64,000 nucleotides of DNA, taken from Lentisphaera araneosa HTCC2155 (GTDB lineage: Bacteria; Verrucomicrobiota; Lentisphaeria; Lentisphaerales; Lentisphaeraceae). The DNA lies in NCBI RefSeq assembly GCF_000170755.1, contig NZ_ABCK01000005.1, positions 62,001 through 126,000 on the forward strand, in the 5' to 3' direction. Both the position numbers and the translations under genes were made by a program. The first letter of the stretch is position 1. The number at the start of each line of letters is the position of its first letter. The notes beneath the pieces were generated by a model. That model made no database searches. It was not told the DNA's origin and saw only the letters and a program-made list of their open reading frames with translations. Positions 12,212 through 44,926 of this stretch are shown here, one piece after another.

Positions 12212-14218
12212 CTATTCGTCCAAGATTGATTCTAAACTTAATTTTGCATGATTTAGTTTAGGGTCGACTAGTTGAATTTTCACCTCTAGACGAGTACCAA
12301 TCTCAAGCTTTTTACCGTGATTTAATTTTAAGCGCAGAGTCAGTCCATCTAATTCGACTAATAGGCCACCATTTAAATGATTGACCACAGTCGCCAAATA
12401 AGTCTCTCCAATCTTTGATTGTTCGAGGTACGTGTAAAGCCAAAAGTTCTCTGACTGCCTTTGTACATCTCTTACTTCCCCCAAACGACTTTCAGCTTTT
12501 GATTTGATTTCTAATAATTCATCTTCAGTATAAACCAAATCTCGTCCCTCTAAAAAGGCGATAAGTTGCCTTTGCATCATCAAGTCGCTATAGCGACGAA
12601 TCGGAGAAGTAAACTGAGTATAACAATCCAAACCCAGGCCCGCATGATCTGAGGGGTAAGGGGTCATACGGGACTTTTTCATACACTTAATCGCTGCATC
12701 AAAAGATACCGGATCATACGTCTCGGGCATCGCCACTTGTTCATCAGACTTTTCTTGAACGCGATATAAGGCTGGAATCTCATTGTCCCGACAAAATTGC
12801 GCTCCTAAATTATTCGCGAGAATCATAAACTCACCCACTAATGCACGACTCTTTGAATGAGCTCTTACTTCAGTAATATCAACCACGCCATCGACAATGG
12901 TAATTTTATTTTCTGGTCGATTAAAAGTTATCGCTCCCTTTTCTTGTCGCTTGAGTATCAATTCATCTGCTAAATTCGCTAGAATATCAAGATCTTTTTT
13001 TAAGTCTTCTTTTGCTTCTTCATCGCCTTCTAGGACTCCATCACAATAACGATAGCTCAATTTTTCAGAAACTTGAATTAAACTTCTTTCAATATGGGTA
13101 GATCTCAATTCCCCATCACTTGTCAAAGTGGCGTAATAAGACAGCGCAGGCTTGGGCGAACCAGGAAGAAGAGATGCCTTATGAGTGGCTAATTCCGCAG
13201 GAAACATATTCACTGTTCCAGTTGGTAAATAAATACTCGTGGCCCTGTGCTCTGCTTCTAGGTCCAAGGTGCTTGCTTTGGCGATATAGGCACTAACGTC
13301 TGCGATATGAATCCCAATTTTAAATAAATCATTTTCTAGATATTCAACACTGAGAACATCGTCCACATCTGAAGTTGATTCATCATCAATACTAAAGCAA
13401 TAAAAGTCTTCACCCAAGTCATTTCGACCTGTTGAATCAAAATCCAGCTCTTCAGCCATCGCGAGGAGTTTCTGGGAGAAATCGGGGCGTATTCCTGCTA
13501 TCACTAAGTGTTCATCACAATCTTTACTAATCTGCCCTGTTTTCATCAAAAACTCGACAGCTTTTAATCTCAAGGGAGACTTGCCAATCAGTTTATCTAA
13601 AAACCTCGAGGCATCAGAACTCTGTTTCAGCCAAATCAAGTTACCTAATTGCCCGACAAAAGTTTTAAATTTTCCAGGAACTTCGACAGTGGAATCCTCA
13701 TCACTTTCCAAAACACTCTGAACCCAGGGTCCAAGCTCAGCTTCGTACTCTTCTTGAAGGCGCTTTTTCTCTCGACTCTTTAAAATAGCCTCAACTTGCT
13801 CTTGGTCGCGAATCGTAAATTCAGCAAGCCGGCGCTTAAAGTAAACTATATCTTGGGACAAAACATCAAATAAACCCGCTTTCAGGTAATCACTTAGTTC
13901 TGAAAAATAAAAATCGCAGAGCTCATCTAAGGTGAAAACTTTACACTCTTCGCCTTCCAGCATCTCCCACAGCATCCCAAGGTCAACATCAGCGGCTAAT
14001 GATTTTATCTTCTCTTCATACTGCGGGTGGTTTAAACGAAAGTCATCTTCGCTCACTTTTTCATTAAAACTAAATAAAACGTTCTTTAATGGCAAAGGAA
14101 TTGTGCGTCCGCTCGCAATTAAAGACTTGGCCTTTTTTTTCTCTATCCCCAAGACATAAGCTAGTCTTAATTGGTTTCCGTCCGTGTAAGCACTCAGCCC
14201 ATAAAATTCTTCTGTCAT
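12212..14218 (-). CDS. RNB-domain 3'-5' exoribonuclease (RNase II/R family)
   Basis: 668 aa. The catalytic RNB domain begins near residue 275 with FSIDDESTSDVDD, the cluster of Asp residues that bind two Mg ions, and ends with YTQFTSPIRRYSDLMMQRQL. A C-terminal S1-like part (TYLATVVNHLNGGLLVEL) follows. The N-terminal 250 residues are not typical cold-shock domains by eye, which makes it closer to the shorter RNase II-like members than to classical RNase R. It degrades RNA processively from the 3' end. First gene of the minus-strand operon; its upstream gap holds the twin-hairpin structure. Confidence 0.9.
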   Translation of the reverse strand: MTEEFYGLSAYTDGNQLRLAYVLGIEKKKAKSLIASGRTIPLPLKNVLFSFNEKVSEDDFRLNHPQYEEKIKSLAADVDLGMLWEMLEGEECKVFTLDELCDFYFSELSDYLKAGLFDVLSQDIVYFKRRLAEFTIRDQEQVEAILKSREKKRLQEEYEAELGPWVQSVLESDEDSTVEVPGKFKTFVGQLGNLIWLKQSSDASRFLDKLIGKSPLRLKAVEFLMKTGQISKDCDEHLVIAGIRPDFSQKLLAMAEELDFDSTGRNDLGEDFYCFSIDDESTSDVDDVLSVEYLENDLFKIGIHIADVSAYIAKASTLDLEAEHRATSIYLPTGTVNMFPAELATHKASLLPGSPKPALSYYATLTSDGELRSTHIERSLIQVSEKLSYRYCDGVLEGDEEAKEDLKKDLDILANLADELILKRQEKGAITFNRPENKITIVDGVVDITEVRAHSKSRALVGEFMILANNLGAQFCRDNEIPALYRVQEKSDEQVAMPETYDPVSFDAAIKCMKKSRMTPYPSDHAGLGLDCYTQFTSPIRRYSDLMMQRQLIAFLEGRDLVYTEDELLEIKSKAESRLGEVRDVQRQSENFWLYTYLEQSKIGETYLATVVNHLNGGLLVELDGLTLRLKLNHGKKLEIGTRLEVKIQLVDPKLNHAKLSLESILDE

Positions 14219-14343
14219 TCTTATCCTTAATAAAATTTGGCGTAAAGTGCCCTCGCGGGCATACTTTTCAAACTCAAAGCATCAAGCAGGAAGAACTTAT
14301 TTTCTGCATAAATTAACCTTTTCTTAATATTTTATTCAAAAAA
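14219..14343. other. Intergenic start between RNB gene and twin-hairpin region
   Basis: AT-rich region between the divergent RNB gene and the hairpin structures. I see no gene; promoters for the minus-strand operon should lie here. Confidence 0.4.
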
Positions 14344-14560
14344 CGTTTGAAATGCGTATATTTATGAATATTATAATATTAGGAAAACGAACGAGTATTT
14401 CAAACGATCTTTTAAGTCGCCGTCCCAAACACTCCTCACTCCCTCCTATTGACACTCCCCGGGGCGGCGACTTAAAAGATCTAGTAAATACACTTTAAAC
14501 TGCCGTCCACTCCTCACTCCCTCCTATTTACACTCCCAACACTCCGGGCGGCAGTTTTTT
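14344..14560 (+). ncRNA. Candidate small RNA: two stem-loops with a repeated C-rich loop and T-tract
   Basis: Seen directly: a 17-bp perfect stem (14406-14422 with 14465-14481) with a 42-nt loop, then a 9-bp stem (14497-14505 with 14549-14557) with a 43-nt loop, followed by six T. The loops share a 30-nt sequence with one mismatch (14430-14459 and 14508-14537), containing CTCACTCCCTCCTATT. A third 10-bp inverted repeat (14344-14353 with 14397-14406) abuts the first stem. TATAAT at 14372-14377 with TTGAAA 19 nt upstream may be a promoter. The loop core CCUCC is complementary to Shine-Dalgarno sequences. On the other strand the loops read AGGAGGGAG, but no T-tract follows there. Expression as RNA is inferred. 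Confidence 0.5.
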
Positions 14561-14703
14561 CTTCCTCAAAGCACCTGACTGTCATTAATCTTTGCTAAGT
14601 CACAAATTACCTAGATTTTTGATCATTTTTATTGAGTGGCTTTTTTGCAAAAGCCATTAATGAACTATCTTAGGACTTGTTTAAATTTTAAAATCAACTT
14701 CCT

Positions 14704-15765
14704 ATGAGTCTAGCTAATAAAATCAGATCAGTTTTTGTCAAAGATATCGGTATCGATCTTGGCACAGCAAACAGCCTTGTTTTCGTACGCGATCAAGGCA
14801 TCGTCCTTAATGAACCCAGTGTAGTTGCTGTACACGAAGATACCGGAAAGGCTCTCGCCGTAGGTATTGAAGCGAAAAAAATGCTAGGTAGAACGCCAGG
14901 TTCCATCAGAGCGATTCGCCCCATGAAAGATGGCGTTATTGCTGATTTTGACATCACCGAGATTATGTTACGCTATTTCATTAACAAAGTTCACTCCCGC
15001 GCACGCAACCTCACCATGCCCCGTGTCCTCATTGCCGTTCCATCAGGAATCAATGAAGTTGAAATGCGTGCCGTCAAAGAAAGTGCCAAAAAGGCTGGTG
15101 CTGGAGAAGTAGAAACAATTTTCGAGCCCATGGCAGCTGCTATTGGCGTTGGCCTTCCTGTTGCCGACCCAACCGGCAACATGGTTGTTGATATCGGTGG
15201 CGGCACAACTGAAGTCGCCATGATTTCACTTGCCGGCATCGTGGAAAGTAAAAGTGTTAAAGTTGGTGGTGATGCCATGGACATGGCTATTACTAATCAC
15301 GTAAAGAATAACTACAATTTAAAAATTGGTCCTAGAATGGCTGAGCAAATCAAGATTAATCTTGGCTCTGCATTCCCTCTTGAAGAAGGCGAACTAACAA
15401 TGGAAGTTCGTGGTAATGACCAACTCGCTGGTTTACCAAAAGCCATCACCATTACGAGCACAGAGATCCGCGAAGCTTTAATGCCCCCAGTAACTGCCAT
15501 TGCAGAATCTGTTCGTCAAACTCTTGACCGCTGCCCTCCTGAGCTATCAGCTGACTTAATTGACCATGGCATTTATCTCGCTGGCGGTGGCGCCCTATTG
15601 CGTGGCTTAGATAAATTACTTCGCCAAGAAACTGGCCTCCCAGTAACCGTTGCTGATGACCCCCTCTGTGCGGTGGCTAACGGTACAGGTTCTGCGCTTC
15701 AGAATATGGATACGCTCTTTAGAAACTCCCAAGAAGCAGCCAAGCGCAACAAAAAGTACCGCTAA
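14704..15765 (+). CDS. mreB: Rod-shape determining protein MreB
   Basis: 353 aa actin-like ATPase that organises cell-wall elongation. Seen: DIGIDLGTANSLVFV (phosphate 1), VVDIGGGTTEVAMISL (phosphate 2) and YLAGGGALLRGLDKLL (adenosine motif). The N-terminal MSLANKIRSVFVK may form the membrane-binding amphipathic helix. No mreC or mreD follows: instead plsY begins 3 bp after the stop, so this mreB is the head of an envelope operon. The 5' gap contains the twin-hairpin structure ending about 140 bp upstream. Confidence 0.96.
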   Translation: MSLANKIRSVFVKDIGIDLGTANSLVFVRDQGIVLNEPSVVAVHEDTGKALAVGIEAKKMLGRTPGSIRAIRPMKDGVIADFDITEIMLRYFINKVHSRARNLTMPRVLIAVPSGINEVEMRAVKESAKKAGAGEVETIFEPMAAAIGVGLPVADPTGNMVVDIGGGTTEVAMISLAGIVESKSVKVGGDAMDMAITNHVKNNYNLKIGPRMAEQIKINLGSAFPLEEGELTMEVRGNDQLAGLPKAITITSTEIREALMPPVTAIAESVRQTLDRCPPELSADLIDHGIYLAGGGALLRGLDKLLRQETGLPVTVADDPLCAVANGTGSALQNMDTLFRNSQEAAKRNKKYR

Positions 15766-35424: not shown

Positions 35425-37310
35425 ATAAGGGTAGGGAAAGCTCCTTGCGGAGCCTCCCCTCCTTCCGAACCGTACGTGCGGATCTCCCGCATACGGCTCT
35501 CCGGTCAATGCTTACTCCGAAGAGACTGAGATTCCAATAGCCAAGCCTCTTCCAGTGAAAAGAACCCTAGCTCTGCAAAGTATTTCTTGGTATATTTCCT
35601 GTTATCTATAAAGCGATGTGAACCTTTCTTACGATTGTACTTAGCGATAATACTTCGTAACCTTCGACGAAAGAAAGCATCAACTTCGAGCATAGCCCAA
35701 CGATTTGAGTGTTTGAAGTACTCATACCAACCTTTGAGACTAGGCCTGAGACCTTTAATGATTTCTTCTACCGATTGCCAGTTACAACGCCTCGTATGCT
35801 TTCGCACAGTGTCTTTCATTTTAGCCATACTCTGTTTTCTTGGCCACCTATTTATCCTGCCCGTTCTTTTCGAGCGCTCAAAGTGATAACCTAGAAATTC
35901 AAAGTACTCATCCTGCTGATTCATGTCGGCAATTCGGGTTTTATCGGGATGGAGGTTCAGACCATGAGCCTTCATCCAACGCTTGATTTTGCGCAAGCCC
36001 CTCTTAGCCGATTTCGCATTATTACACACCACCAGAAAGTCATCCGCATACCTTACGATTTCAAAGCCAGCCGCTGTCATCCTGTGGTCGAATTCATTGA
36101 GGTAAATATTGGCAAGTAGTGGGCTAATTACGCCTCCTTGCGGAGTCCCTTTCTCGGGATCCCACTCCTTGATCCCATCAAATATTCCTGCTTTGAGGAA
36201 AGCTTCTATAAGATCTAGGGTCTTGCCATCGCTTATTTTCTCTTTGACTCGTTCCATGAGTTTGTCGTGCGGTATCATATCAAAGTAACTTTGAATATCC
36301 GCATCAATGACGTAGAGCTGTCCCTGCGTAAGTAGATGATGAACACGCCGAAGCGCATCTTTACATCCACGTTGCGGACGAAAACCAAAACTTTGTGTAG
36401 AAAAATCCACATCATATATCGGTTCAATAACATTCTTGAGCGCAGTCTGAACAACTCTATCGCGCACGGTCGGTATTCCCAAAGCACGCGTTTTACCATC
36501 TGCTTTTGGGATCTCTACCCTGCGAACGCATTGTGGTAGGTAAGTCCCTGCCTGCAGTTGCTTCATCAATTGCTTTGTATTGTGCTCTAGCTCTGATTCG
36601 TAACGATCCAAGCTCACCATATCCACCCCGTGACTCCCGCCGTTTGCACGAACAGATTCCCAAGCTTCTATAAGGTTTACTTCTCGCGCTACTTTATCTA
36701 TTAAGCTATACCATTTCTTACCTTCAACTCTTGTTTCAAGAGTTCCCAGCATCTGATCTGTCCAGACTGAAGTCGAGGCCCACGCACGAATTTCTTCGGT
36801 GCGCCCTAAGTGCTCCCATGTATGTTTAGTCATCTCTGACAATTGTTTCACTCCTTCATTCTTTTCTTCTCAGTTTCATCTTCCTACTCTCCTTCGCTCT
36901 AACAGCTTTCACCGCCTTCTTCGCTACTATGAGAGCTCTGACTCCTGCATGCCTTATTGCACTGCACATGCAGATCTCCCTAATTAACGTCACACAACCT
37001 TCACCGCATTCCGTCTCCAACCACTCTATAGACTTCCTCTACTGCTTTTCTACTCGCTGATATTCAGCATAAAGGATCTTCAGAATTACTCCTTATTATT
37101 ATTTTCATTCCGTTCCAAGCTTCGCCACGCGATCGCAGGCTCGCTAGTACTATAAAGCCGAATCGAGTTCGTCATCCTACGGACTGCTGCTTCGCCTTGC
37201 CTTGCTCTCCACCCCGCCTCACGACAACGCAGTTAGGTTCGACTACAACATAATCAGCCTTTGTTGATGAGGACTTTCACCTCACTGATTGTGTGCGCTC
37301 TCAGGCGCAC
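35425..37310 (-). mobile_element. Group II intron, apparently intact copy
   Basis: 1886 bp on the minus strand. The 5' end is GTGCG (37310 downwards), the 3' end AT (35425). Domain V is at 35467-35499 (GAGCCGTATGCG ... CGTACGGTTC, with the AGC catalytic triad), followed by domain VI with a GCAA loop and the bulged A in CCCTACCC. The maturase gene lies in domain IV. The 5' exon is a REP-like palindrome (37311-37331) and the 3' exon starts CCAG. This is the same junction as in copy 2. No HNH endonuclease domain is seen in the maturase. Confidence 0.92.
35505..36851 (-). CDS. ltrA: Group II intron reverse transcriptase / maturase
   Basis: 448 aa. Seen: RT block with VIDADIQSYFDMIPHDKLM, GTPQGGVISPLLANIYLNEFD and the catalytic YADDFLVV (around residue 268), then HPDKTRIADM and the maturase X domain (RPSLKGWYEYFKHSN). 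The C-terminal end is short and has no HNH endonuclease, so the intron should prime on a nascent strand during replication or invade without second-strand cleavage. The protein also assists splicing of its own intron. Start ATG at 36851, in the intron loop. Confidence 0.93.
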   Translation of the reverse strand: MKQLSEMTKHTWEHLGRTEEIRAWASTSVWTDQMLGTLETRVEGKKWYSLIDKVAREVNLIEAWESVRANGGSHGVDMVSLDRYESELEHNTKQLMKQLQAGTYLPQCVRRVEIPKADGKTRALGIPTVRDRVVQTALKNVIEPIYDVDFSTQSFGFRPQRGCKDALRRVHHLLTQGQLYVIDADIQSYFDMIPHDKLMERVKEKISDGKTLDLIEAFLKAGIFDGIKEWDPEKGTPQGGVISPLLANIYLNEFDHRMTAAGFEIVRYADDFLVVCNNAKSAKRGLRKIKRWMKAHGLNLHPDKTRIADMNQQDEYFEFLGYHFERSKRTGRINRWPRKQSMAKMKDTVRKHTRRCNWQSVEEIIKGLRPSLKGWYEYFKHSNRWAMLEVDAFFRRRLRSIIAKYNRKKGSHRFIDNRKYTKKYFAELGFFSLEEAWLLESQSLRSKH

Positions 37311-37331
37311 GAGCGCGGGCATCTTGCCCGC
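37311..37331. repeat. REP-like palindrome at the 5' exon of intron 1
   Basis: GAGCGCGGGCATCTTGCCCGC: palindrome GCGGGC-AT-type core with GAGC before it. The same 21 bases are at 44903-44923, and close relatives are at 45167-45187 and near 41121. It is directly adjacent to the intron end. Confidence 0.8.
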
Positions 37332-37445
37332 ATTTCCTGAAAAATATTTCATTCCTCTTTTCTAAGAAAAACTCATAAAGTCATTAATAAATTGTTGCTC
37401 AGCTAAAAAGAAGCACCATATTAGGACAACGTTTTAGGAGTAGCA

Positions 37446-41280: not shown

Positions 41281-41497
41281 GGAGTTTTTAGTTTGTTCTT
41301 TTTGAACAGTTGGCAGATCGGCTTCGCAGGCTCGTCTTGATTTTTTACTGGATAAGGGTAGGGAAAGCTCCTTGCGGAGCCTCCCCTCCTTCCGAACCGT
41401 ACGTGCGGATCTCCCGCATACGGCTCTCCGGTCAATGCTTACTCCGAAGAGACTGAGATTCCAATAGCCAAGACTCTTCCAGTGAAAAGAACCCTAG

Positions 41498-43159
41498 CAG
41501 CCTGTCGGAATTCTGAAAAGATATATTGCGTATCAAGCCGATCAAATCACGTCAACATGTACATGTAATGATGAGTTTAGTCGTCTTTACAGAGCACCAA
41601 GTAATTAGCGAGTAGAAATCACCTTATCTGTATAAAAAAGAGTGCCTGAGAGCCTTTTTAGGCTCCAATAAAGAATTTTTTATCGAACGGCGACAGGCCA
41701 TTGCCTTTTGTGAGTTTAAATATTCTTTTGAGGTTATAAGCGATGCTGAGTAAGTCCCACTCGAGGTTAACTTTTTCAATACCTCGCAGGAAAAATTGCC
41801 TGAACCCGAGCACTTCTTTAATTATACCAAAGGCTGGTTCCACTGTTTGTTTACGCAGCTTATAACATTCTCTCCCTCGTGTAGTTTGAAGCTTTTGGCG
41901 CATAGCTTCTTTTGGAGTTAAACCTTGAGGTGAGTATTCTAGGTCATCTCTCTTTTCTAAGTCTGCGACTGTTCGCCCGTGAGGCGTACGTTCTACATCA
42001 CAATAAACTTCAGTGTTTTGGGTTTCATCGCTTTCGATTTTTGTAACAGCTCCCTCGGAGTAATAACCACTATCAGCCAAGAGTTCACTGACTTCTCTGA
42101 TGGAGGAATCTATGCTATTCAAGGCTGGATCAAGCTGTAGTTTGTCATTGGGATCATTTGTTACATAGGCACCGAGAATCAACATGCTACCTTCAATATC
42201 TACCGCCGCTTGAGCGTTATAGCATTGCTGAAAACCTGATGAAGATGTCTTCATAATACGACTTTCTTCATCGGTGAAATTTACTTGCGCTTTATCGTCA
42301 GGTATATCTTGAGGAGGCTTGGGTTCACGTCCACGAGGTTTTCCGCCTTTATCACGAATAGTTTGTCGTGTTTTTTGTTTCTGTTCATACTCTTCTTGCT
42401 TTGCTTTCATCTTTTCGGAATGACGCTCTTCGATGATTTTTCTCGCATCTTTGAGTTTAGCTATACGGGTTTCGCGTCGAGTGATTTCTTCTGGTATGCT
42501 CAAGCCTTCTTCAAGTGGTTTAGAGTCGGCCTGTTCAGCTTTTTGAGTTAACGCATCAACTTCTGCGCTAAGCAACTCAAGTAACTCACCTGATTTCTTA
42601 TACGACACGGCCGAATGCTTACTTGCATTGGCCTTAATCTTTGTGCCATCTACGCTTACTCCACCCAATTTCTTAAGAACTTTTAATTCCGAAGCTAATT
42701 CTAAAACTTGAATAAATGCTTCTTTGAAAGCGACTCCATTTTCTCTGCGAAATTTACAGATAGTATCATGATCGGGATGTAAATCTGCTGCTATGTAGCG
42801 CACGGCTAGATCTGAATAAGTAGCGCATTCTATTTCTCGTGAGGAAAAACGACCCGTTGCATAACAATAGATCAATATTGAAAGCATTAAGTGAGGATGG
42901 AATTGATCGGAACCACTGCCTGTTGGATTTGTCTTGAATTTATCGACTGGCACAAGATCCACTGCATCAATTATAAAGTGGACTATATGATCTTCGGGTA
43001 TCCAGTCATTCAGACTTGGAGGTAGTAACAAAGGAGTATTTCTATCAAAGTATTTGAACCGGGATGACATAAAATAAACCTACTTGAATTAGCATTTATT
43101 CAAAATACTCCAGCTTCCTCTAATTTCACTTCTCGAGTCAGGATAAGTCCGACAGGCTG
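41498..43159 (-). mobile_element. IS1182-type insertion sequence inside intron 2
   Basis: 1662 bp. Ends are CAGCCTGTCGGA in inverted orientation (41498-41509 and 43148-43159). It is flanked by CTAG on both sides (41494-41497 and 43160-43163), an exact 4-bp target duplication when compared with the uninterrupted intron 1, which reads CCCTAGCTCTGC. It carries a single transposase gene. Confidence 0.93.
41658..43070 (-). CDS. IS1182-family transposase
   Basis: 470 aa. Seen: the N-terminal DUF772-like domain (FKYFDRNTPLLLPPSLNDWIPEDHIVHFIIDAVD, HPHLMLSILIYCYATGRFSSREIE), then a DDE core with GVSVDGTKIKANAS (first Asp), ADSGYYSEGAV (second Asp) and the C-terminal RKQTVEPAFGIIKEVLGFRQFFLRG (Glu). 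A long charged coiled insert (about 180-240) separates the first two. The ORF appears intact. The family name rests on the domain order and element layout, not on a search. Confidence 0.88.
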   Translation of the reverse strand: MSSRFKYFDRNTPLLLPPSLNDWIPEDHIVHFIIDAVDLVPVDKFKTNPTGSGSDQFHPHLMLSILIYCYATGRFSSREIECATYSDLAVRYIAADLHPDHDTICKFRRENGVAFKEAFIQVLELASELKVLKKLGGVSVDGTKIKANASKHSAVSYKKSGELLELLSAEVDALTQKAEQADSKPLEEGLSIPEEITRRETRIAKLKDARKIIEERHSEKMKAKQEEYEQKQKTRQTIRDKGGKPRGREPKPPQDIPDDKAQVNFTDEESRIMKTSSSGFQQCYNAQAAVDIEGSMLILGAYVTNDPNDKLQLDPALNSIDSSIREVSELLADSGYYSEGAVTKIESDETQNTEVYCDVERTPHGRTVADLEKRDDLEYSPQGLTPKEAMRQKLQTTRGRECYKLRKQTVEPAFGIIKEVLGFRQFFLRGIEKVNLEWDLLSIAYNLKRIFKLTKGNGLSPFDKKFFIGA

Positions 43160-44443
43160 CTAGCTCTGCAAAGTATTTCTTGGTATATTTCCTGTTATCT
43201 ATAAAGCGATGTGAACCTTTCTTACGATTGTACTTAGCGATAATACTTCGTAACCTTCGACGAAAGAAAGCATCAACTTCGAGCATAGCCCAACGATTTG
43301 AGTGTTTGAAGTACTCATACCAACCTTTGAGACTAGGCCTGAGACCTTTAATGATTTCTTCTACCGATTGCCAGTTACAACGCCTCGTATGCTTTCGCAC
43401 AGTGTCTTTCATTTTAGCCATACTCTGTTTTCTTGGCCACCTATTTATCCTGCCCGTTCTTTTCGAGCGCTCAAAGTGATAACCTAGAAATTCAAAGTAC
43501 TCATCCTGCTGATTCATGTCGGCAATTCGGGTTTTATCGGGATGGAGGTTCAGACCATGAGCCTTCATCCAACGCTTGATTTTGCGCAAGCCCCTCTTAG
43601 CCGATTTCGCATTATCACACATCACCAGAAAGTCATCCGCATACCTTACGATTTCAAAGCCAGCCGCTGTCATCCTGTGGTCGAATTCATTGAGGTAAAT
43701 ATTGGCAAGTAGTGGGCTAATTACGCCTCCTTGCGGAGTCCCTTTCTCGGGATCCCACTCCTTGATCCCATCAAATATTCCTGCTTTGAGGAAAGCTTCT
43801 ATAAGATCTAGGGTCTTGCCATCGCTTATTTTCTCTTTGACTCGTTCCATGAGTTTGTCGTGCGGTATCATATCAAAGTAACTTTGAATATCCGCATCAA
43901 TGACGTAGAGCTGTCCCTGCGTAAGTAGATGATGAACACGCCAAAGCGCATCTTTACATCCACGTTGCGGACGAAAACCAAAACTTTGTGTAGAAAATCC
44001 ACATCATATATCGGTTCAATAACATTCTTGAGCGCAGTCTGAACAACTCTATCGCGCACGGTCGGTATTCCCAAAGCACGCGTTTTACCATCTGCTTTTG
44101 GGATCTCTACCCTGCGAACGCATTGTGGCAGGTAAGTCCCTGCCTGCAGTTGCTTCATCAATTGCTTTGTATTGTGCTCTAGCTCTGATTCGTAACGATC
44201 CAAGCTCACCATATCCACCCCGTGACTCCCGCCGTTTGCACGAACAGATTCCCAAGCTTCTATAAGGTTTACTTCTCGCGCTACTTTATCTATTAAGCTA
44301 TACCATTTCTTACCTTCAACTCTTGTTTCAAGAGTTCCCAGCATCTGATCTGTCCAGACTGAAGTCGAGGCCCACGCACGAATTTCTTCGGTGCGCCCTA
44401 AGTGCTCCCATGTATGTTTAGTCATCTCTGACAATTGTTTCAC
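43160..44443 (-). pseudogene. ltrA: Group II intron maturase, frameshifted and truncated
   Basis: The same maturase as at 35505-36851. A missing A in a poly-A run near 43994-43997 shifts the frame after about residue 148 (the 5' piece runs 44443 to 43868; the rest opens again from 43871). The IS at its 3' end removes the last residues after FAEL, which are replaced by IS sequence. The catalytic YADD is preserved in the second piece, but no full-length protein can be made. Confidence 0.9.
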
Positions 44444-44902
44444 TCCTTCATTCTTTTCTTCTCAGTTTCATCTTCCTACTCTCCTTCGCTCTAACAGCTT
44501 TCACCGCCTTCTTCGCTACTATGAGAGCTCTGACTTCTGCATGCCTTATTGCACTGCACATGCAGATCTCCCTGATTAACGTCACACAACCTTCACCGCA
44601 TTCCGTCTCCAACCACTCTATAGACTTCCTCTACTGCTTTTCTACTCGCTGATATTCAGCATAAAGGATCTTCAGAATTACTCCTTATTATTATTTTCAT
44701 TCCGTTCCAAGCTTCGCCACGCGATCGCAGGCTCGCTAGTACTATAAAGCCGAATCGAGTTCGTCATCCTACGGACTGCTGCTTCGCCTTGCCTTGCTCT
44801 CCACCCCGCCTCACGACAACGCAGTTAGGTTCGACTACAACATAATCAGCCTTTGTTGATGAGGACTTTCACCTCACTGATTGTGTGCGCTCTCAGGCGC
44901 AC

Positions 44903-44923
44903 GAGCGCGGGCATCTTGCCCGC
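44903..44923. repeat. REP-like palindrome at the 5' exon of intron 2
   Basis: Identical to the copy at 37311-37331 and directly abutting the 5' end of the second intron. Confidence 0.8.
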
Positions 44924-44926
44924 AAC

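Follow-up and report, generated by a model that had tools for sequence, protein, structure and literature searches.

Two neighbouring stem-loops that present nearly the same C-rich loop lie between a divergent RNase gene and mreB in Lentisphaera araneosa, and the question raised by this locus is whether they form an RNA, on which strand it would lie and what a loop repeated in this way would do. The locus was analysed within a stretch of 64,000 nucleotides, hereafter the window, and all positions given without a locus name are those of the window. The reading that we favour, with a probability of about 0.58, is that of a trans-acting small RNA (sRNA) of ~180 nt that would have its own promoter, would end at the second hairpin as terminator, and would use anti-Shine-Dalgarno (anti-SD) loops to pair with mRNAs that carry a strong Shine-Dalgarno (SD) sequence, thereby blocking initiation. 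The features of the locus are the following.

12212-14218, minus strand: divergent RNase II/R-type gene with an RNB domain (Pfam RNB, 8e-78), a neighbour of the hairpins in both genera
14347-14377, plus strand: putative promoter, TTGAAA (14347-14352) with TATTAT/TATAAT (14369-14377), from a consensus scan and conservation
14382-14405, plus strand: 5′ leader of the putative sRNA, 76-100% identity across the genus
14406-14481, plus strand: hairpin 1 (HP1), 21-nt arms, from a repeat search and folding
14443-14459, plus strand: HP1 loop core CTCCTATTGACACTCCC, 17 of 17 bases identical in three species
14497-14557, plus strand: hairpin 2 (HP2), the putative terminator stem, 12-nt arms, from a repeat search and folding
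14521-14537, plus strand: HP2 loop core CTCCTATTTACACTCCC, from the repeat search; the congeners read CTCCTATTGACACACTCCC
14555-14560, plus strand: T-tract TTTTTT after HP2, intrinsic-terminator-like by its sequence
14704-15765, plus strand: mreB (Pfam MreB_Mbl, 5e-140)

In agreement with the first-pass annotation of this DNA, two stem-loops with a common loop are present at 14406-14481 and 14497-14557. A repeat search recovers a shared 30-mer at 14430-14459 and 14508-14537 (29 of 30 bases identical, spacing 78), together with inverted repeats of 21 nt for HP1 (14406-14426/14461-14481, 95% complementary) and 12 nt for HP2 (14497-14508/14546-14557, 92% complementary). Because the full stems are counted here, the unpaired loops measure ~34 and ~37 nt rather than the 42 and 43 nt given earlier. 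The arms, AAGTCGCCGTCCC in HP1 and AAACTGCCGTCC in HP2, had been described as unrelated; they can be aligned, with compensated differences, and on this alignment the two hairpins are diverged duplicates. The plus strand of 14382-14562 folds at −57.8 kcal/mol, compared with −29.0 ± 3.1 for shuffled sequences (z −9.2, 0 of 200 shuffles as good). The loop core is accessible, with an unpaired probability near 1 except for one end base at 0.51.

Relatives were compared using the genomes of L. araneosa (G000, 6.02 Mb), two Lentisphaera congeners (G001 and G002), a third genus of the Lentisphaeraceae (G003), and a sister genus represented by two genomes (G004 and G005). Both congeners searched retain the twin hairpins, with the RNase gene on one side and mreB on the other, and in 3 of 3 Lentisphaera genomes cmk is adjoined by a third hairpin, which has another stem but the same loop. 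Each sister-genus genome holds a single hairpin beside the orthologous divergent RNase gene, and orthologues of this gene adjoin a hairpin in G001, G002, G004 and G005; sister-genus sequences, as judged by sequence identity, also occur in records JAJPOQ010000147 and JAKVBD010000111. No C-rich-loop hairpin is found upstream of the RNase gene in G003. A covariance model was built from the 11 hairpins and searched on 198 genomes of the class, 25 candidates per genome being scored. Among these candidates, it gave 11 strong matches in five Lentisphaeraceae genomes, which are all 11 input hairpins, and nothing comparable beyond them. Nine further matches were weak, and those inspected were unrelated short hairpins or coding sequence lacking the loop. 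The exact motif, searched among 84,980 species genomes, occurs in Lentisphaeraceae and in two other places that lack a hairpin and were taken as chance; none was found in viral contigs. In the searches made, the hairpin RNA family is restricted to Lentisphaeraceae.

The alignment of the 11 hairpins separates a constant loop core from stems that change in a compensated manner. The core CUCCUAUU is invariant throughout; CTCCTATT is likewise invariant and is followed by G (T once), AC, A/G and, in most hairpins, CTCCC. Of the stem pairs, 11 remain paired in 121 of 121 cells, four of them with changes on both sides, and in the outer stem of HP1 a compensatory change from C-G to U-A is seen in G001. 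When 12 pairs are counted, 96% of cells pair, versus 31-56% with the partner slid, and 15 cells are changed on both sides, versus 5.6 in shuffles; given the relatedness of copies and species, few independent covariation events lie behind these counts. Relatives show what the first-pass annotation had proposed to look for, namely stems that covary around a constant loop. Its statement that the loops are conserved and the stems are not holds for the loop core between copies and genera but fails within the genus, where the arms are 90-100% identical (HP2 arms, 100%), compared with 85-97% for the HP1 loop, 64-87% for the HP2 loop and 65-87% for the flanking gap. Similarly, drift of the loops at the pace of the gap, which it had set against its own proposal, is observed for the flanks of the HP2 loop (64-87%, versus 67-75% in the downstream gap) and not for the loop core. 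Judged by these comparisons, the twin-hairpin RNA is almost certainly real and represents a structurally selected family that is not in Rfam, and a functional role of the loop itself is supported.

The 3′ end of the 16S rRNA is a normal GGATCACCTCCTTTTT and contains CCUCCU; therefore, the loop core copies the anti-SD and is complementary to a strong SD, and the complementarity to AGGAGG noted at first pass is correct. An unpaired loop core together with a CCUCCU 16S end makes the loop complementary to the SD, as in trans-acting anti-SD sRNAs. The RNA would very likely act in trans, and it probably blocks the ribosome-binding sites of messages by SD pairing. In the proposed mechanism, the stems of the family are interchangeable, and the single-stranded loop that they hold, CUCCUAUUGAC(A/G)CUCCC, is constant; this anti-SD loop would most likely pair with the ribosome-binding region of a few mRNAs whose AGGAGG-type SD is unusually strong, the pairing would block translation initiation, and the two loops would be two equivalent docking sites. 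Of 55 genes in the window, 0 have AGGAGG, and their SDs are weak (mean duplex energy −3.9 versus −2.3 shuffled); such a loop would therefore single out few messages. Since weak SDs prevail among the window genes, this RNA could serve to test whether the few strong-SD messages are controlled selectively.

Searches for such messages gave two candidates. Neither ATAGGAGG nor AGGAGGG before ATG is commoner than a reversed-pattern control, with no enrichment of strong SDs, and no 13-mer complement of the loop outside the sRNA loci is conserved, the positions being coding or antisense. A search with the invariant 8-mer found two orthologue pairs. The first, with the best-conserved candidate site, is a 386-aa protein with no Pfam family. 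In G001 and G002, its gene carries TCAATAGGAGG, which matches over 11 nt, whereas G000 has CTACAGGAGG, with the AGGAGG core only. The second, a 501-aa protein with no Pfam match and by its look a transporter permease, has AAATAGGAGG in G000 and G001 and only partial matches in G002. A candidate target leader reads AAATCAATAGGAGGATTTATG, and the predicted duplexes of loop and candidate range from −13 to −25 kcal/mol. The two sites are weak leads, since strong SDs would be expected to be conserved even if no sRNA acted on them.

A different use of the same loop can be proposed tentatively: in a lineage-specific RNA family, the 17-nt loop element as a whole, and not a bare anti-SD, would be held out on covarying, interchangeable stems, and a dedicated partner, either a protein or one specific class of mRNA, would read it. 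As genes of this phylum mostly lack strong SDs, the strong-SD messages concerned would be a small, privileged set. Rather doubtful is the further step of taking the constant loop as a protein site, bound by a protein that recognises C-rich single strands or by the ribosome, so that the RNA would titrate the protein or decoy the translation machinery with no mRNA pairing at all. The conserved core (CUCCUAUUGAC plus CUCCC) does exceed what an SD-blocking seed needs, it is displayed repeatedly in a fixed stem-loop setting, and the target searches returned no enriched or conserved mRNA complement; an exact anti-SD within the core speaks against this account, which also comes without a candidate protein.

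Returning to an sRNA that pairs with SDs, its ends may be placed from signals on either side of the hairpins. A sigma-70-like TTGAAA-16-TATTAT is found by consensus scan at 14347-14374, 5′ of HP1. Because the scan gives 5 promoter-like sites versus 1.6 expected, this match is weak by itself; however, the site is conserved, TTTGAAATG and TATGAATA-TATA being kept in three species and the region being 78-85% identical. The T-tract is conserved as well, and is also found 3′ of the hairpin in the third copy and in the sister-genus copies. The RNA would start near 14383, from its own promoter divergent from the RNase R-type gene, and HP2 as terminator would end the transcript near 14560. Taken with the covarying stems and the constant loop core, the conserved promoter-like site and T-tract are consistent with the independent small RNA suggested at first pass. 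Upstream of the putative sRNA promoter, a block AATTAACCTTTTCTTAA at 14311-14336 is also kept in three species and is either the promoter of the divergent RNase gene or a regulator site.

HP2 sits 146 nt before the mreB ATG, and the hairpins were initially linked to that gene. This link does not extend to all copies: the sister-genus hairpin beside the RNase gene has a short ORF and pilin-like genes downstream of it instead of mreB, and the third copy is beside cmk. Probably, mreB is only an incidental neighbour. It is unlikely that the hairpins act in cis, as leader or attenuator of the gene that follows them. The T-tract of HP2 and its distance from mreB could suggest this, along with a sister-genus short ORF that begins no more than tens of bases from the T-tract; however, the copies have different neighbours (mreB, the cmk locus, a short ORF), and an identical loop in copies at different genes indicates action in trans. 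The sister-genus short ORFs, of 40 and 47 aa, start just past the T-tract (L039:1561-1683 and L040:about 1181-1324) and have a common C-terminal stretch, IKVKxKRxxxPF. Upstream of mreB, an inverted repeat GGCTTTTTTGCAAAAGCC at 14635-14665 is conserved.

The strand is indicated by the stems themselves. G-U pairs fill 18 of 121 stem cells; these become A-C mismatches on the minus strand, where 103 of 121 cells would pair, and the functional RNA is therefore on the plus strand. On the minus strand, GGA recurs in the loops and the fold is also better than shuffles (z −3.4), which could recall a GGA-rich, CsrB-type double hairpin that titrates a CsrA-like protein, but this is very improbable given those mismatches, a plus-strand fold that is far stronger, and a T-tract that lies 3′ of the stem on the plus strand in HP2, the third copy and the sister-genus copies. 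Equally improbable, and disfavoured, is a mobile or repeat element (a REP/MITE-like hairpin) or a set of ordinary terminators with a loop shared by chance: several copies per genome and a terminator-like form would fit, but each of the three species has no more than three copies, always at the same syntenic positions, model matches with full loops occur in 5 of 198 genomes of the class (25 candidates scored per genome), and plain terminators would not be expected to keep a 17-nt loop core across separate loci.

To our knowledge, no sRNA has been characterised in Lentisphaerota, and a literature search found none. The hairpins match no Rfam family at its gathering cutoff, either in the window or at related loci; mir-873 and others fall far below. 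The closest parallel is with the alpha-r14/NfeR1 'cuckoo' sRNAs of Alphaproteobacteria, in which three hairpins with highly different stems carry an identical unpaired anti-SD motif, CCUCCUCCC (PMC10746234). The Lentisphaeraceae RNA resembles these in its identical anti-SD loop on diverged stems and its repeated hairpins, with two (or one) here and three in alpha-r14. It differs in phylum and in motif, CUCCUAUUGAC(A/G)CUCCC: exact CCUCCUCCC is absent from the loops here, which read (A)CUCCCUCCUAUUGACACUCCC, with CCUCC present. The alpha-r14 model (RF02344) has no match at E ≤ 1 in 14300-14720, and its best score, 20.7 bits (E 4.1) at the related locus L007, compares with a gathering cutoff of 58.8. 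Because the Rfam test fails and the motif differs, the RNA is an analogue of alpha-r14 and not a member. This repeated use of one anti-SD loop on different stems seems to have an origin separate from that of the cuckoo RNAs and would be a convergent solution. C-rich loops of the CUYCCUCCC type are also present in CcsR1-4 of Rhodobacter sphaeroides. The latter are related small RNAs with a Rho-independent terminator at the end (PMC10253847), processed by RNase E from the 3′ UTR of ccaF1 (PMC8625941); unlike them, the present RNA likely has its own promoter and has no such protein gene upstream. The multicopy LhrC1-5 RNAs of Listeria bind G-rich SD regions through redundant UCCC loop motifs (PMC4132741). 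Redundant C-rich loop motifs complementary to the SD, in multiple copies, are common to LhrC1-5 (also RsaE, FsrA and SprD) and the Lentisphaeraceae RNA, which differs in having no Rfam match, a longer fixed loop core and an unrelated lineage.

Several structured elements were observed alongside this family. Just upstream of the third hairpin, in 3 of 3 genomes, lies a mini-hairpin, AGAGAAGGAGAGCTTCTC (L002:1555-1605, minus strand), that is invariant and contains an SD-like GGAG; it could pair with a CUCC loop or act as a motif of its own. Directly 3′ of the third hairpin is a second, highly conserved putative structured RNA, GCTGGAACACCACAGTCGTAATGC...GACCGCGGGG... (L002:1250-1440, minus strand; about 1700-1860 in L035 and L036). 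This element combines a closing stem and internal bulges with a strong terminator; its outline looks 6S-like, although it gives no 6S match and no Rfam family reaches its cutoff there. Elsewhere in the window, two group II introns (35425-37332 and 41352-44924; Rfam RF00029, 57.7 bits each) are ~99.5% identical over matched pieces, and the second appears to be interrupted, with a transposase-like gene at 41658-43070 splitting the reverse transcriptase gene.
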